A stretch of 64,000 nucleotides of DNA from Thermoflexus hugenholtzii (GTDB taxonomy: Bacteria > Chloroflexota > Anaerolineae > Thermoflexales > Thermoflexaceae): contig NZ_CP076326.1 in the NCBI RefSeq assembly GCF_018771565.1, forward strand, positions 3,169,785 through 3,233,784, in the 5' to 3' direction. Every line of letters begins with the position of its first letter. Position 1 is the stretch's first letter. Of the stretch, positions 27,924-62,271 are shown one piece after another. The notes below the pieces were generated by a model. It ran no database searches. It saw only the letters and a list, made by a program, of their open reading frames with translations, and had not been told where the DNA came from. A program made the translations under genes and the position numbers.

Positions 27924-30785
27924 ATGCAACCGGAAGCCTTCATCGTCCCCCACACCCACTGGGATCGGGAGTGGTATCGTCCCTTCCAGGCCTTTCGTTA
28001 CCGTCTGGTGGACCTGGTCGAACAGGTCCTTCGGATGATCGAGGGGGATCCGGATTTCAGGGGGTTCCTGCTCGACGGCCAGTCGGTGATCCTGGAGGAC
28101 GTCCTAACGGTGCGCCCGGATCTGGAGCCGCGGATCCGACAAGCGGTGGAGGCCGGCCGCCTCTGGATCGGCCCCTGGTATGTGCTCCCCGATGAGTTCC
28201 TGGTGAGCGGGGAGGCGCTCGTCCGCAACCTCCAGGTCGGGATCCGCATCGCCCGCCGCTTCGGCGGCGAGATGCCCATCGGCTACACGCCGGATCCCTT
28301 CGGCCACGTTGGGCAGCTGCCCCAGATCCTGAAAGGGTTCGGGATCGAGGCCGCCGTGTTCCAGCGCGGCCTGGACGAGCAGCCGACGCTCCTCTGGTGG
28401 GAAGCCCCGGACGGCACCCGGATCTTCACCGTGTATCTCCGGGACGGCTACGGGAACGCCGCCTGGATCCCGGAGGACGCGGAGGCCCTGGCGGCCTACC
28501 TGAAGGCCCAGGCCCTCTCCCTGGCGCCCCACACGCCGGTTCCCCTCCTCCTGCTTATGAACGGGACGGATCATCTCTTCCCCCATCCGCGGCTGACGGA
28601 GTGGCTCCGGGCGGCCCAGGCGCATCTCCCGGATCTCCGCCTGCGCCTCGCTTCCCTGGCGGATTACATCGCCGCGGTGCGGACTGCTCTCGGCCAACAG
28701 CTGTCGGATCTCCCCGTGGTTCACGGGGAGCTGCGCTCCAGCCGACGCCATCCGGTCCTGCCCGGCGTGCTCTCCACCCGCATCTGGATCAAGCAGCGCA
28801 ACGCCGCCGTCCAGACCGCGCTGGAGCGCTACGCGGAGCCCCTGATGGCCTTCGCGCATCTTCTCTGCGGCCTGGACCGACGGGCCTTCCTTTTCGAGGC
28901 ATGGCGGCTCCTCCTTCAAAATCACTTCCACGATTCGATCTGCGGGACGGGGGTGGACGCGGCCCATGAAGACATGCGGCCGCGCTTCGATCACGCCGAG
29001 CAGATCGCCGGCCTGGTGAGTCGGGAATCCCTGGAGCGGCTCCTGCGGCCGGAGGCAGCCGAAGCCCCACCCGGCTGGCTGGCCTCGGACCCGGCGTCGA
29101 TGGAGCAGGCGTTGCTGGTCTACTGCCCGATCCCGGGCTCCGTCCGGGGGCCGGTGGAGGTGACCCTTCCTGCCCTCCCGCCGGGCCTCACGTATCGCCT
29201 CCTGGACCCTGAGGGGCGTGAGCTCCCGCTCTTTCAGGTGGAGCGGGGGACGCCTGACGAGGCGCGCTGGACCGTCGCCCCGGCGGAGTGGCCGGGCTTC
29301 CTGAACCGCCTGCTCTGGATCCACGTGGGCCCCTATGCGGCGAAGCGGGTGTGGGTGGATCTCGAGAGGCGGCAGCTCTGGGCGGAGTGGGCGGACGCCT
29401 CGGCGGACATGGATCACGGGATGATCACCCGTGTCCTTCAAGTGGCCCGCCAGCTGGGAGAGCGAGAACCGGCCCTCACAGCCCCATGGACGGTCTCGGC
29501 GGCGATGGGAGGAGCCTCCCGCTGGGCCTTCGTCCTCCCCGAGGGCCGGGGGGTCGGCCTCCAGACCTATCGGTTGCAGATCCGCCCCGGGACACCGCGC
29601 GCGATCTCCCGACGTCCCCGGGCGGAGCCGGAGATCGCCAACGAGTTCTTCCGCCTCACCGCGGATCCCTCAGATGGGACCCTGCAACTGGAGGATCTCC
29701 GAACGGGCCGGCGGTGGCGCGGCCTGAACCGCTTCGAAGATGAAGGGGATGCCGGGGATGTCTACAACCATGAGTCGCCGGCGGAGGATCGGCGGGTGGA
29801 CCGCCCGGCGGCGCCGCCCCGGGTCGAGGCCTGGGAGGAGGAGCCGTTCGGTCAGTGCCTGGAGGTCGATTTGCCGTATGAGATCCCGGCCGGGCTGCGG
29901 CCGGACCGCCGGGGACGCTCCGCGGAGACGGTCCCGCTGTCGATCGCTGTGCGGGCATGGCTGCGACCGGGAGTTCCCCGGGTCGATATGGAAGTTGTGG
30001 TGGACAATCGGGCGGCCGATCACCGCCTGCGCGTGGTCTTCCCCACCGGCATCCGGTCCGAGACCTGGGTGACAGAGGGGGCGTTCGACCTCGTGGTCCG
30101 CCCGGTGGGCCTCCGCGTCCGGGCAGATGACTCCTGGGTGGAGCAGCCGGTGTCTGCCGCCCCCCAGCAGGGCTTCGCGTTCGTGGAGGACGCCGCCGGC
30201 GGGCTCCTGGTGGCGAACCAGGGGCTCCCGGAGATCGAGGCCCGGACGGACGCGGAGGGACAGGTGGAGCTGGCCCTCACCCTGTTGCGGTGCGTGGGCT
30301 GGCTGTCGCGGGGGGATCTGCGATCCCGGCGGGGGCATGCGGGGCCGCCGCTGCCCACGCCCTCCGCGCAGATGATCGGGCGCTGGGCCTTCCGCTACAG
30401 CCTGATCCCTTACACCGACCGCTGGGAGGCGATCCGGGAGGCCCAGCGGTTCCTGGCGCCGCCCCTCGCGGGGGCGGGCCCCGGCCGTCTGCCGGAGCGG
30501 CTGTTCCTGGAGGTGGAGCCGGCCGCCTTCGTCCTGACCGCCGTGAAGGCCCCCGAGGAGGGGGAGGGCCTCATCGTGCGAGGGTATAACGCCGCCGAGG
30601 AGGTCGTCCAGGTCCGGCTTACCTTCTGGCGGCCGGTTCAGGCGGCCTGGCGGGCGGACCTCATGGAGCGTCCCCAGGAGCCCCTTCGCCCGGAGGGGTC
30701 CTCTCTGACCTTCCGGGCCCGCCCCAAGGAGATCGTCACCGTGCGGGTGGTCCTCGCCCCGCTCCTCTGGCATCCGGAAGGATAA
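27924..30785 (+). CDS. Alpha-mannosidase, GH38
   Basis: The 953-residue protein has the zinc site HTHWDREW (His10, His12, Asp14) and the nucleophile Asp124 in GYTPDPFGHVGQLPQIL. The second zinc His region is HFHDSICGTGVDA. The C-terminal half is the beta-sandwich region of GH38. It should hydrolyse alpha-mannosides, probably in the cytosol because no signal peptide is present, after uptake by the adjacent ABC importer. GGAGG is found upstream of the ATG. It is the last gene of the glycan-uptake unit and a strong terminator follows. Related members trim mannosylglycerate or N-glycan fragments; which applies here is open. Confidence 0.92.
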   Translation: MQPEAFIVPHTHWDREWYRPFQAFRYRLVDLVEQVLRMIEGDPDFRGFLLDGQSVILEDVLTVRPDLEPRIRQAVEAGRLWIGPWYVLPDEFLVSGEALVRNLQVGIRIARRFGGEMPIGYTPDPFGHVGQLPQILKGFGIEAAVFQRGLDEQPTLLWWEAPDGTRIFTVYLRDGYGNAAWIPEDAEALAAYLKAQALSLAPHTPVPLLLLMNGTDHLFPHPRLTEWLRAAQAHLPDLRLRLASLADYIAAVRTALGQQLSDLPVVHGELRSSRRHPVLPGVLSTRIWIKQRNAAVQTALERYAEPLMAFAHLLCGLDRRAFLFEAWRLLLQNHFHDSICGTGVDAAHEDMRPRFDHAEQIAGLVSRESLERLLRPEAAEAPPGWLASDPASMEQALLVYCPIPGSVRGPVEVTLPALPPGLTYRLLDPEGRELPLFQVERGTPDEARWTVAPAEWPGFLNRLLWIHVGPYAAKRVWVDLERRQLWAEWADASADMDHGMITRVLQVARQLGEREPALTAPWTVSAAMGGASRWAFVLPEGRGVGLQTYRLQIRPGTPRAISRRPRAEPEIANEFFRLTADPSDGTLQLEDLRTGRRWRGLNRFEDEGDAGDVYNHESPAEDRRVDRPAAPPRVEAWEEEPFGQCLEVDLPYEIPAGLRPDRRGRSAETVPLSIAVRAWLRPGVPRVDMEVVVDNRAADHRLRVVFPTGIRSETWVTEGAFDLVVRPVGLRVRADDSWVEQPVSAAPQQGFAFVEDAAGGLLVANQGLPEIEARTDAEGQVELALTLLRCVGWLSRGDLRSRRGHAGPPLPTPSAQMIGRWAFRYSLIPYTDRWEAIREAQRFLAPPLAGAGPGRLPERLFLEVEPAAFVLTAVKAPEEGEGLIVRGYNAAEEVVQVRLTFWRPVQAAWRADLMERPQEPLRPEGSSLTFRARPKEIVTVRVVLAPLLWHPEG

Positions 30786-30820
30786 AGCCAGAAGCCGGTC
30801 CCGGGCGGATGCGGTACGCC

Positions 30821-30859
30821 GGGGAGGAAGGCCTGAGGAGGCCTCCTCCCCTTTTTGTT
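30821..30859 (+). terminator. Intrinsic terminator after the alpha-mannosidase gene
   Basis: GGGGAGG-A-AGGCCT and AGGCCTCCTCCCC pair over 13 bp with one bulge and a GAGG tetraloop, followed by TTTTTGTTT. It closes the sugar-uptake operon. Confidence 0.85.
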
Positions 30860-30923
30860 TGAGATCGCCGCGCCTCCGGGAGGGATGCCGGAGAGTCCCG
30901 ACGCCTTCATCCTTCCTCCGGGG

Positions 30924-30959
30924 GATCTTCACAGGATCTTCACAGGACCCGGGCAGAAT
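30924..30959 (+). promoter_or_regulatory. Tandem response-regulator box and promoter of the PepSY/two-component operon
   Basis: CTTCACA occurs at 30927-30933 and 30938-30944, an 11-base period like the direct-repeat boxes of PhoB/OmpR-type regulators. The second repeat is followed, after the sequence GGACCCGGG, by the -10-like CAGAAT (30954-30959). That places the box over the -35 position, as at PhoB-activated promoters. The likely binder is the regulator encoded at 32223, giving positive autoregulation. Confidence 0.65.
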
Positions 30960-30997
30960 CCAGGGTGGAAGTGAGACCCACAGGCGGGAGGAAGCCG

Positions 30998-31783
30998 ATG
31001 AAGCGCTGGAAAATCGTGGGGGCACTGGTGTTGCTGGTGCTTCTGATCGGGATGGTGGGGGTCGGAATCGGCATCGCACGGACGGCGATGGGGTGGACCC
31101 TTCCCACCTTCGGCGGGGCCGGGCCGGTCCCCTCGGCTCCGGGGCCGGGCAGGTGGCCCGGCGGGAGGATGGGTCCGTGGGGCGGGATCGGATGGGGAAC
31201 GATCCCGGGGACACCCCTCTCCGATGAGGAGGCGGTGCGCATCGCCCGCGACGTCATCGCCGCCTATGGGAACCCGGACCTGGAGCTGGCTGAGGTCATG
31301 GCCTTCGATAACCACTTCTACGCCCAGGCGCGGGAGCGCTCCACCGGCCGCTACGCCTTCGAGTTCCTCATCGATCGGTTCACCGGGGCTGCCCATCCGG
31401 AGCCGGGGCCCAACATGATGTGGAACGCCCGCTACGGGATGATGAGGAACCACGGCATGATGGGGAGCGGGTGGGGCGTCTCCGGGGAGATGCGCCTCTC
31501 GCCGGAGGAGGCACGGCGGATCGCTCAGGCTTACCTGGATCAGGCGATGCCGGGGGCCACGGTAGATGAGGAGGCCGATCCTTTCTATGGCTACTACACG
31601 CTGCACATCCTGCGGGACGGCCGGATCATTGGGATGCTCAGCGTGCACGGCAGCACCGGCCAGGTGTGGGTGCATACCTGGCATGGGAGCTTCCTGCAGA
31701 TGGTCTATGGCCATGAGGGGGAGCACGGATCCTTCGGGGGCGATGGCGCGACCATCGCGTTCCTGTCCATAATTTCCCTGTGA
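30998..31783 (+). CDS. Membrane-anchored or exported protein with two PepSY-like repeats, Met-rich
   Basis: The 261-residue protein starts with a membrane helix (about residues 5-28) and then a Gly/Pro-rich linker. Two related ~60-residue units follow, beginning LSDEEAVRIARDVIAAYG and LSPEEARRIAQAYLDQAMPG, each running into a beta segment ending in FTGAAHPEP or STGQVWVHT. This is the PepSY-type pattern. Between them lies a Met-rich stretch, MMWNARYGMMRNHGMMGSGW. It is probably extracytoplasmic. Its gene heads an operon with a zinc-ribbon membrane protein and a two-component system. A role in binding a soft metal such as copper, or in envelope stress, is inference. GGGAGGAAG precedes the ATG at 30998; an earlier GTG frame adds 11 residues. 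Confidence 0.8.
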   Translation: MKRWKIVGALVLLVLLIGMVGVGIGIARTAMGWTLPTFGGAGPVPSAPGPGRWPGGRMGPWGGIGWGTIPGTPLSDEEAVRIARDVIAAYGNPDLELAEVMAFDNHFYAQARERSTGRYAFEFLIDRFTGAAHPEPGPNMMWNARYGMMRNHGMMGSGWGVSGEMRLSPEEARRIAQAYLDQAMPGATVDEEADPFYGYYTLHILRDGRIIGMLSVHGSTGQVWVHTWHGSFLQMVYGHEGEHGSFGGDGATIAFLSIISL

Positions 31784-31795
31784 AGGAGGAAAACC

Positions 31796-32188
31796 ATGAG
31801 CCGCAACTGGATCGGCTTGCTGATCGGAGCGCTGGTGTTGCTGGTCCTGCTGGTCGGTGCCCTGGGCCTGCTGGCCGGCCCGGCGTGGGGCTGGGGCTGG
31901 GGGTGCCCGGGTTGCCCGATGATGGGGCGCTGGGGCTGGGGTGGCATGGGCTGGGGCTTCGGGCTGTTGATGATGTTGCTGGGCCTGCTGCTCCCCTTGC
32001 TGTTCTTCGGCCTGATCATCGCCGCGGTGGTCTGGGGGATCCAGCAGGTGACCCGGGCCGGCGGCCTGCCCCCCGCTGCGCCTCCGGCGGCTCGCTGTCC
32101 GCAGTGCGGCCGCCCCGTCCAGGCGGACTGGGCCCACTGCCCCTACTGTGGGGCTTCGTTGACCAGCGGGTCGGCGCGGCAGGGCTGA
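31796..32188 (+). CDS. Small membrane protein with C-terminal zinc ribbon
   Basis: The 130-residue protein has two hydrophobic segments (about residues 7-28 and 53-80). They are separated by a short loop rich in Gly, Trp and Met that contains CPGCPMMGRWGWGGMGWG. The C-terminal tail has a zinc ribbon, [28 protein letters not shown] precedes the ATG, 12 bases after the PepSY gene. I know no assigned function. The first loop could bind a metal on one side of the membrane while the ribbon works on the other. Confidence 0.78.
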   Translation: MSRNWIGLLIGALVLLVLLVGALGLLAGPAWGWGWGCPGCPMMGRWGWGGMGWGFGLLMMLLGLLLPLLFFGLIIAAVVWGIQQVTRAGGLPPAAPPAARCPQCGRPVQADWAHCPYCGASLTSGSARQG

Positions 32189-32222: not shown

Positions 32223-32903
32223 ATGCGGACGGTGCTGGTGGTGGAGGACGAGCCCCGGATGCGCCAGGTGATCCGGGCCTACCTGGAGCAGGCGGGGTTC
32301 CGCGTGATCGCGGTGGGGGATGGCCCCAGCGCGTTGCATGCCTTCCGGCGGGAGCGGCCCGACCTCATCGTCCTGGACCTGATGCTGCCGGGCATGGATG
32401 GCTTCGACGTCTGTCGCACCATCCGACGGGAGTCCGGGGTGCCCATCATCATCCTGACGGCGCGGGTGGAGGAAGAGGATCGGGTGGTGGGCCTGGAGCT
32501 GGGGGCGGACGATTACATCACCAAGCCCTTCAGCCCGCGCGAGCTGGTGGCGCGGGTTCGCGCGGTCCTGCGGCGGGCGCAGGGGGAGATCTCCCCGCCC
32601 GCCGTCCTCCGGGTGGGGGATCTGGTCATCGACCTGGAGCGTCGGGAGGTGCGGGTGGGCGACCGGGAGGTCCGTCTGACGCCCACGGAGTTCGAGCTGC
32701 TGACGGCGATGGCGCGTCATCCGGGCCGCGTCTTCACCCGGTTACAGCTGCTGGAGCGGATCCAGGGCGTGGCCTACGAAGGATATGAGCGGACCATCGA
32801 CGCGCACATCAAGAACCTGCGCCAGAAGATCGAGCCGGACCCCCGCAACCCGCAGTATATCCTCACCGTCTATGGGGTCGGCTACAAGCTTCGGGAGGAG
32901 TGA
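32223..32903 (+). CDS. OmpR/PhoB-family response regulator
   Basis: The 226-residue protein has a receiver domain with acidic pocket VVEDEPRMR, phosphoacceptor Asp in IVLDLMLPGMDG, Thr/Ser switch in ILTARVEE and Lys in YITKPFSPREL. The C-terminal winged helix has RLTPTEFELLTAMARHPG and ends YILTVYGVGYKLREE. It is encoded four bases into the kinase frame, a classic pair. The tandem CTTCACA box at 30927-30944 is the likely binding site for its promoter. Confidence 0.95.
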   Translation: MRTVLVVEDEPRMRQVIRAYLEQAGFRVIAVGDGPSALHAFRRERPDLIVLDLMLPGMDGFDVCRTIRRESGVPIIILTARVEEEDRVVGLELGADDYITKPFSPRELVARVRAVLRRAQGEISPPAVLRVGDLVIDLERREVRVGDREVRLTPTEFELLTAMARHPGRVFTRLQLLERIQGVAYEGYERTIDAHIKNLRQKIEPDPRNPQYILTVYGVGYKLREE

Positions 32904-32917
32904 GCGAGGGGATCCGG

Positions 32918-34345
32918 ATGCGGAGCCTGTGGGCGAAGCTGACCCTGGCCTTCGTCGGCGTGGTCGTCCTGAGCCTGCTGACCACGGCCCTCCTGATCGC
33001 TCTGGCCACCGCGGGGGAGTTCCGGATCTACGTGGCCCGGGGGAACCGGCGCTGGGCGGAGGGGCTGGCCCCGCTCTTCGCCGCATATTACGCCCGGGTT
33101 GGGAGCTGGGAGGGCGTGGAGGCTGTGCTCGAGGACATGCCGATGCCCATGCCCGGCATGGGGCCCATGCATCCGCCCATGGGGATGAACCGGGCGATGT
33201 GGCGGATGATGGGCCACCGCCTGATCCTGACGGACGAGGCGGGGCGGGTCCGGCTGGATTCCGAGGGGAGCGCAGTGGGAACCCTTCTCCCGGCGGCGCG
33301 GGACCAGGGGGTCCCGATCCGCGTGGCGGGGCGGACGGTGGGGTGGCTGCTCATCGGCGAGGTGGAGAGCCCCACCGGGCCCTCGGCGGAGTTCCTGGCT
33401 CAGGTGCGGCGGGCCATCGCCCTCAGCACGCTGCTCGGGATCGCCCTGGCCCTGGGGGCGGGCTCCTTTGTGTTCTTCCGGCTGATGCGTCCGCTCCAGG
33501 CCCTCCAGCAGGCGTCCCGGCGGATCGCGAGGGGGGATCTCGGCGCGCGCATCCCGGCGCAGGAGGCCGGGGAGCTGGGGGAGGTGGCCCGGGCCTTCAA
33601 TCAGATGGCGGAGGCGCTGGCCCGGGCGGAGCAGCAGCGGCGTCAGATGCTGGCGGACATCGCCCACGAGCTCCGCACCCCTCTGGGCATCCTGCAGGGG
33701 CAGCTGGAGGCGCTGCTGGATGGCGTCCTTCCCCTGGCGCCGGAACAGATCGCCCAGGTCCACGACGAGGTCCGACACCTGGCCCGGCTGGTGGAGGACC
33801 TGCGGCTCCTCGCCCTGGCGGAGGCCGGTCAGTTGCGGCTGGAGCGGGGGCCTGTGGACCTGCGATCCCTGATCGAGGAGGCCGCCGACCGCATCGCGCT
33901 GCAGGCGGCGGAGAAGGGGATCCGGCTGGAGGTGCATCTTCCGGAAGGGCTGCCGCCGGCGTGGGGGGATGAGGGGCGCCTGCGGCAGGTGCTGATGAAC
34001 TTGCTCACCAACGCCCTCCGCTACACGCCTGCCGGCGGCCGGATCACCATCGAGGCCCAGCCCCTCGGGGATCAGGTGCAGGTGAGCGTCCGCGACACCG
34101 GGGTGGGGATCGCCCCGGAGGATCTGCCCTATGTCTTCGATCGGTTCTACCGGGCGGAGAAATCCCGGGCCCGGGCGGACGGGGGGTCGGGGCTGGGGCT
34201 GGCCATCGCCCGCCATCTGGTCGAGGCCCACGGCGGGCGCATCGGGGTCGAGAGCCAGCCCGGCCGGGGCTCCCATTTCTTCTTTACCCTCCCCATCGTC
34301 TCCCGCTCATCAAGTCGCCCCCGCATCCTTACGGATGTGCTATAA
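32918..34345 (+). CDS. Sensor histidine kinase with methionine-rich periplasmic loop
   Basis: The 475-residue protein has TM1 (about 8-30), an extracytoplasmic domain, TM2 (about 168-190), HAMP, a HisKA dimerisation helix with IAHELRTPLGIL, and an HATPase with NLLTNALRYTPAGG, DTGVGIAPEDLP and GSGLGLAIA. The sensor domain has ten Met in 25 residues (74-98, including DMPMPMPGMGPMH and RAMWRMM) plus His, but no Cys. This resembles Cu(I)/Ag(I)-binding Met clusters; the ligand is inferred. A GTG at 32900 also opens the frame and overlaps the regulator stop, but GAGGGG favours ATG 32918. The 3' end contains the tRNA promoter. Confidence 0.9.
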   Translation: MRSLWAKLTLAFVGVVVLSLLTTALLIALATAGEFRIYVARGNRRWAEGLAPLFAAYYARVGSWEGVEAVLEDMPMPMPGMGPMHPPMGMNRAMWRMMGHRLILTDEAGRVRLDSEGSAVGTLLPAARDQGVPIRVAGRTVGWLLIGEVESPTGPSAEFLAQVRRAIALSTLLGIALALGAGSFVFFRLMRPLQALQQASRRIARGDLGARIPAQEAGELGEVARAFNQMAEALARAEQQRRQMLADIAHELRTPLGILQGQLEALLDGVLPLAPEQIAQVHDEVRHLARLVEDLRLLALAEAGQLRLERGPVDLRSLIEEAADRIALQAAEKGIRLEVHLPEGLPPAWGDEGRLRQVLMNLLTNALRYTPAGGRITIEAQPLGDQVQVSVRDTGVGIAPEDLPYVFDRFYRAEKSRARADGGSGLGLAIARHLVEAHGGRIGVESQPGRGSHFFFTLPIVSRSSSRPRILTDVL

Positions 34346-61902: not shown

Positions 61903-62271
61903 ATGACGCGGGATGCGGAGCGGCTGCGGATCCTGAAGATGATCGAAGCCGGGCAGATCACCGCCGAGCAGGGCCTGGAGCTGCTGCGGGCTCTCCAGGA
62001 GGCGGAGGAGGCGGAGGGCTCTCCTTCATCGGCCGGCCGCTGGTTGCGCATCCGGGTCACCGATGTGGCCACCGGACGCCCCCGGGTGCATGTGAACGTC
62101 CCGCTGCGCCTGCTGGATCTGGGGCTGCGGATCGGTGGGCGGCTGGCGCCGGAGATCGCGGGGCTGGACCTCCAGAAGTGGCTCGAACAGTTGCGGGCGA
62201 GCGGCAGCGGGAAGCTGGTGGAGGTCCTGGACGAGGAGGAGGGCGAGCGCGTGGAGATCACCGTGGAGTGA
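61903..62271 (+). CDS. SHOCT-like domain protein
   Basis: The 122-residue protein begins RLRILKMIEAGQITAEQGLE, the short helical SHOCT-like unit found at the N-terminus of YvlB/LiaX-type proteins. It then has a beta-rich WLRIRVTDVATGRPRVHVNV region and LAPEIAGLDLQKWLEQL. Such proteins often belong to membrane-stress modules together with DUF2089 regulators. GGAGG precedes the ATG. Function unknown. Confidence 0.82.
   Translation: MTRDAERLRILKMIEAGQITAEQGLELLRALQEAEEAEGSPSSAGRWLRIRVTDVATGRPRVHVNVPLRLLDLGLRIGGRLAPEIAGLDLQKWLEQLRASGSGKLVEVLDEEEGERVEITVE

Follow-up and report, generated by a model that had tools for sequence, protein, structure and literature searches.

A tandem CTTCACA repeat upstream of a two-component operon in Thermoflexus hugenholtzii as the probable core of an autoregulatory operator

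What is the function of a perfect tandem repeat that is located directly in front of a -10-like hexamer and a two-component operon in Thermoflexus hugenholtzii? An earlier sequence-only reading had interpreted it as a PhoB-type activator site. We followed up this interpretation in the window, meaning the whole analysed stretch of 64,000 nucleotides, in the complete genome, in the genus Thermoflexus and in the phylum Chloroflexota.

Results

A perfect 11-base repeat and a lone -10 hexamer

The sequence GGATCTTCACAGGATCTTCACAGGA holds the tandem repeat, a 9-bp gap and the hexamer CAGAAT. Two exact copies of CTTCACA (30927-30933 and 30938-30944) follow each other with a period of 11, and CTTCACA-N4-CTTCACA is contained in a 25-base stretch (30923-30947) that is a perfect period-11 repeat, with a perfect run of 14 bases starting at 30923. 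The putative promoter element is separated from the second CTTCACA by exactly 9 bp.

30954..30959, forward strand: -10 hexamer CAGAAT

This hexamer deviates from the consensus. A TTGACA-like hexamer was not found 15-19 bp upstream of it, and no sigma-70 promoter passed in a scan of positions 30780-31010. The repeat is confirmed as real and not misread: the two exact copies, their 11-base period, the 9-base distance and the lack of an own -35 had all been described correctly in the sequence-only reading, with coordinates that deviate by no more than one or two bases.

Runs of at least 11 at periods 8-15 were limited in the 64 kb to this period-11 run and a GGAGGC-type run of period 9 at 61997. 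Among 100 dinucleotide shuffles of the window, one contained a period-11 run of at least 13, at all periods from 8 to 15 there were 0.06 runs of at least 13 per shuffle, and none contained the exact CTTCACAN4CTTCACA. A functionless 11-bp duplication that arose by chance or slippage would be in line with the perfection of the window copy, as slippage produces short tandem duplications. However, the rarity of such a run in the shuffles and the diverged copies that are kept at fixed spacing in genus and phylum (see below) render this explanation negligibly probable compared to that of a functional site.

The sequence-only reading had seen a possible objection in a pattern that is common in coding DNA; instead, the exact CTTCACAN4CTTCACA is a single copy in the whole 3.3 Mb genome and likewise in the 64 kb. 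With up to three mismatches the window contains 3 matches versus 1.58 expected, so only the exact site is notable there. Allowing up to two mismatches, we detected 17 places in the whole genome, compared to 2 for the backwards control. Four of these 17 represent a different word, GTTCACAN4GTTCACA (270862 and 270979 on the forward strand, 287120 and 1733072 on the reverse strand). The first two of these repeats are 117 bases apart, and another regulator of the OmpR/PhoB family may use all four as operators.

The operon downstream of the repeat

The following features surround the promoter region.

30835..30860, forward strand: intrinsic-terminator-like stem and T run after the GH38 mannosidase gene (two overlapping stems, 0.2 expected)
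30998..31783, forward strand: P1, predicted membrane-anchored protein with two PepSY-like domains and Met-rich segments (AlphaFold model, YpeB match)
31796..32188, forward strand: P2, Gly/Trp/Met-rich membrane protein with a C-terminal zinc ribbon (Pfam Zn_ribbon_3)
32223..32903, forward strand: RR, OmpR/PhoB-family response regulator with the recognition helix RTIDAHIKNLR (Pfam Response_reg and Trans_reg_C)
32900..34345, forward strand: HK, sensor histidine kinase (HAMP, HisKA, HATPase_c) with a Met/His-rich N-terminal loop (family search)

The terminator-like stem behind the GH38 mannosidase gene makes it probable that a new operon starts with P1 at 30998, and P1-P2-RR-HK would then represent a transcription unit of its own. 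P1 had no match in Pfam or NCBIfam. Its AlphaFold model (mean pLDDT 74) comprises a predicted transmembrane helix and two PepSY-like folds, and its best PDB match was the C-terminal domain of YpeB (E 4.2e-4), with TM-scores of only 0.21-0.24. At E<=1e-15, the P1 family has members in 35 of 400 genomes of the phylum (loci L236-L263 among them) and is characterised by the consensus motifs PNMMWNxKYGMM and FYGYYTLH...GMLSVNGYTGQVWxHTWHG.

RR combines a receiver with a winged-helix Trans_reg_C domain (Pfam, 118.6 and 96.7 bits), which is the domain composition of the OmpR/PhoB family, and the claim that the regulator is encoded in the same operon holds. RR is under the curated cut-off of all 25 NCBIfam models listed (the best 25 of 105 matching). 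Identification as PhoB (TIGR02154, 237.9 bits versus a cut-off of 296.2), as MtrA (NF040689, 257 versus 300 bits) or as a CztR/SilR/CopR heavy-metal regulator (TIGR01387, 179.8 versus 279.2 bits) was rejected on these scores. The best NCBIfam score of HK was obtained with BaeS, under the BaeS cut-off. Using Pfam and NCBIfam, we recognised no phosphate gene among the four genes of the operon. The earlier proposal of a PhoB-type site is supported, with the qualification that RR is a member of the OmpR/PhoB family but not PhoB itself.

Conservation within Thermoflexus

Six of the nine Thermoflexus genomes in our collection, representing about three lineages, carry an RR ortholog (own genome 100% identity, others 91-99%), and in all six the site precedes P1 with 0-1 mismatch to the genus pattern. 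In a box-anchored, ungapped comparison of these genomes, 37 of 55 columns were invariant between the most upstream operator unit (unit 1, see below) and the -10, which reads CANNAT in all of them. The flanks contained 2 invariant columns out of 55 just upstream and 5 out of 28 just downstream, although the ungapped comparison makes insertion-bearing flanks look less conserved. One half-site of genome G001 (CTTCGCA) is off consensus. In G002, an insertion separates promoter and P1, while the operator block appears intact by eye. In G003 (contig C122), a stretch of N starts inside P1 of the Thermoflexus operon, and P2 was not found there.

The exact site was absent from the three Thermoflexus genomes without RR (76-93% complete), one of which (G005) contains one match to the genus pattern with 1 mismatch. 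A genome-wide regulon in the own genome was rejected, as the pattern GATCTTCAN3GATCTTCA (up to 3 mismatches) yielded just one exact site. At the exact level in this genome, we found no evidence of a second target in Thermoflexus; a further 33 places at 2-3 mismatches compare to 2 for the control.

Recurrence across Chloroflexota

We then analysed a sample of 400 phylum genomes, in which up to seven RR candidates per genome were scored and RR was detected at E<=1e-75 in 172 (own genome and one congener included). Outside Thermoflexus, 28 loci of close RR relatives (61-68% identity) were read, and [CT]TTCA-N6-[CT]TTCA was found 11 times in 10 of them, always on the RR strand, compared to 5 matches altogether for the other 15 spacings. 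A combined box and -10 (CTTCA-N6-CTTCA with up to 2 mismatches, -A---T demanded at the -10, within 1.5 kb upstream) was present upstream of RR in 16 of the 28 loci at up to 1 mismatch and in 21 at up to 2. Spacing 6 with gap 11 gave 24 sites, compared to 0-7 when the spacing and 0-8 when the gap was varied; the counts at the other spacings imply that the boxes with 2 mismatches include some chance matches. Seven of the 28 relatives have no box within 1.5 kb upstream. At least three of these (L070, L080 and L089) share the helix RTIDAHIKNLR, so the recognition helix cannot tell boxed from unboxed regulators.

The stricter pattern CTTCAN6CTTCACAN9TANNNT revealed 47 exact sites in 42 of the 400 genomes versus 1 for the reversed control; the own genome has no match because its -10 starts with C, while the pattern requires TANNNT. 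We read 46 of these sites (that of G274 was left out) over 0.5-3 kb downstream and 1-2 kb upstream. An RR match (E<=1e-8) followed downstream on the same strand at 25 sites, including one truncated RR (L142), whereas none of the 46 had a match on the opposite strand or 1-2 kb upstream. The other 21 sites, without an RR match within 0.5-3 kb downstream, may serve other targets or be due to chance. RR at E<=1e-75 occurs in 35 of the 42 site genomes versus 137 of the 358 others (Fisher p 2.5e-8, which ignores kinship) and is absent from 7 of the 42. All 18 site-linked RRs that were readable by search expression carry the helix RT[IV]D[AV]H[IVL]xNLR. Of 28 loci with P1 homologues, 6 have a downstream RR match, and in 5 of these 6 the box (up to 1 mismatch) is located within 600 bases 5' of P1. 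Among the 22 loci without such a match, only L239 has a box match, 459 bases upstream. The conserved direct repeat with 11-bp period that marks OmpR/PhoB-family operators is present, and both the PhoB-type geometry (7+4 tandem half-sites, lack of a -35, fixed -10 distance) and the association with a co-encoded regulator recur outside the window.

Alternatively, the box could belong to a different OmpR/PhoB-family regulator acting in trans, for instance a PhoB/PhoP-like protein that recognises TTCACA repeats. The own genome encodes at least ten other near-full-length regulators of the family, any of which could share the site, and contains the GTTCACA repeats at four other places. TTCACA-type repeats also serve other PhoP proteins, in S. 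coelicolor (PMC4415409, available in part) and in M. tuberculosis (PMC4832192, available in part). However, the sites track the clade of the window RR in position and strand, and the conserved word begins with C (CTTCA) and not with G. We therefore regard a regulator other than RR as improbable.

Among the matches listed in a sample of named genomes, 80 RR relatives (79 of them 41-60% identical, several from Chloroflexi) revealed no excess of spacing 6 within 4 kb upstream, neither in sense (5 versus 0-6 elsewhere) nor in antisense orientation (8 versus 0-14 at other spacings). The only clear promoter-like sense match was Thermoflexus itself, and one Corynebacterium copper locus stood out in the other orientation. 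This sample thus gives no support to a reach of the box beyond close relatives in Chloroflexota. The missing excess in named genomes and the unboxed regulators with the same helix slightly lower our confidence in RR as the cognate regulator. A description of the motif in Chloroflexota was not found in a literature search that covered few subscription journals.

An operator of four units

Upstream of the CTTCACA pair, two further units can be aligned in the same phase.

30905..30915, forward strand: operator unit 1, CTTCATCCTTC, located two periods farther upstream (all 6 Thermoflexus genomes have CTTCA here)
30916..30926, forward strand: operator unit 2, CTCCGGGGGAT, a degenerate copy (CTCC is shared by all 6 Thermoflexus genomes)
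30927..30937, forward strand: operator unit 3, CTTCACAGGAT (one substitution in G001, see above)
30938..30948, forward strand: operator unit 4, CTTCACAGGAC (adjoins the -10 and would take over the role of a -35 contact)

The unit search was based on 37-39 nonredundant phylum sites, in whose selection positions 5' of the box played no part. CTYCA was enriched at -22 (at least 4 of 5 matches in 14 of 39 sites) and at -11 (11 of 39, with 7 at -12), compared to 0-4 sites at other offsets between -50 and -5. The phylum sites read YTCCAC at -11, matching the position of unit 2. In the window, CTTCA at 30905 and CTCC at 30916 are in phase with the CTTCACA pair. The operator thus appears to consist of four half-sites rather than two. 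The tandem box described earlier is accurate for its two exact units and missed the in-phase units at 30905 and 30916. A precedent for tandem occupancy is PhoP of M. tuberculosis, which is reported to occupy repeats up to the level of trimers and tetramers (PMC4832192, available in part).

Targets and potential signal

Immediately after the phylum sites lie, among others, RR-HK operons and genes for P1-like, P2-like and Gly-rich secreted proteins. Two of the latter were tested (L125 and L127) and had no Pfam match. In six genomes of family f35 (L112-L117), the gene behind the promoter pattern encodes a secreted, Gly-rich protein that contains repeated helical segments; L127 was the one tested of this kind. 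A HlyD/MacB-type efflux cluster follows the site at L122, and at L142 (contig C69 of G318) the order is a boxed P2-like gene, the truncated RR, a YHS-HMA protein and a P-type ATPase. This set of genes suggests envelope or metal stress.

Copper as a proven signal was rejected, as the Met/His-rich kinase loop is no more than suggestive and copper genes are not recurrent beside the sites. Among 32 site loci of other genomes, queries with one P-type ATPase and one CsoR-type repressor matched their own source loci only. The kinase loop is Met/His-rich in Thermoflexus, but most of the 14 site-linked kinases read have no such loop; Met-rich loops occur in Thermoflexus, L138, L140 and L144 and are absent in L146-L152.

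Discussion

The repeat is, with high probability, the core of an operator through which the co-encoded RR activates its own operon. In this model, tandem dimers of phosphorylated RR would occupy, head-to-tail, four half-sites in 11-bp phase (CTTCA/CTCC/CTTCACA/CTTCACA), with the proximal CTTCACA pair standing in for the -35. RR could thereby bring sigma-70 RNA polymerase to the isolated -10 hexamer CAGAAT, which would result in positive autoregulation of P1-P2-RR-HK. RR binding, its dependence on phosphorylation and activation are inferred from sequence comparison, and the signal is probably metal or envelope stress. As a protein at the -35 position can also block polymerase, the site might instead mediate autorepression. 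This is highly improbable, since there is no -35 for basal transcription and the preferred distance of 9 bp between the last 7-mer and the -10 fits a protein that replaces -35 contacts. Moreover, PhoB sites overlap the -35 (PMC3348028, available in part) and the related CopR activates (PMC3140484, available in part).

The proposed activator operator resembles several known systems. The pho box of E. coli consists of 11-base direct-repeat units with 7 conserved and 4 less conserved positions (PMC4415409 and PMC3348028, both available in part). The window site shares these 7+4 units and their location at the -35, whereas the word differs (CTGTCAT in E. coli, CTTCACA here) and RR is not recognised by the PhoB model. 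The site would hence work like a PhoB box, yet RR is not PhoB. For S. coelicolor PhoP, the repeat word is GTTCACC (PMC4415409, available in part). The M. tuberculosis PhoP operator TCACAGC-N4-TCACAGC comprises 7-bp motifs with a strict 4-bp spacer and is bound by a tandem dimer (PMC4832192, available in part). The window reads TCACAGG-N4-TCACAGG in this register, but the phylum motif is CTTCA-centred, and the PhoP contacts Asn212, Val213, Glu215, Ser216, Tyr217 and Tyr220 correspond to Arg, Thr, Asp, Ala, His and Asn here (hand alignment by residue numbers only).

The closest parallel to the core is CopR of C. glutamicum. According to the available part of PMC3140484, CopR binds TGAAGATTTgaTGAAGATTT in EMSA, motif mutations abolish binding, and the site, located beside its own copRS genes and thought by the authors to be the sole one in the genome, mediates activation. 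It contains the same CTTCA-N6-CTTCA core as the window, on the other strand (TGAAGAT). In the Corynebacterium copper locus (L201), 19 of 20 bases of this site are kept about 110-120 bases before an RR that is 49% identical to the window RR, and the two recognition helices have R, D, H and NLR in common (R..D.H..NLR). The window has the site and the related RR of a Corynebacterium-type CopRS system. In contrast, TGAAGAT lies on the RR sense strand in locus L201, so that the CTTCA repeat points away from RR, opposite to the window, and two units are reported for CopR compared to four here. Multicopper oxidase/CueP genes and a P-type ATPase gene flank the Corynebacterium site and RR, whereas the window operon is composed of P1-P2-RR-HK only and contains no copper resistance genes.

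It may be speculated that the recognition pair of CTTCA operator and RTIDxHxxNLR helix was kept from Chloroflexota to Corynebacterium while sensors, targets and operator orientation were swapped, and that in Chloroflexota it governs a so far undescribed regulon for metal/envelope stress that is widespread (PepSY proteins, zinc-ribbon membrane proteins, MacB-type efflux) on a rigid, -35-less promoter with four half-sites. We consider this bolder reading doubtful, not least because of the missing excess in named genomes and the unboxed regulators with the same helix. The operator motif and its spacing rules are testable for an RR clade that is common in Chloroflexota (172 of 400 genomes) and allow culture-free target prediction. 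In comparison to the systems above, the sequence evidence characterises a known kind of switch, for which the motif is newly defined and the architecture better resolved.
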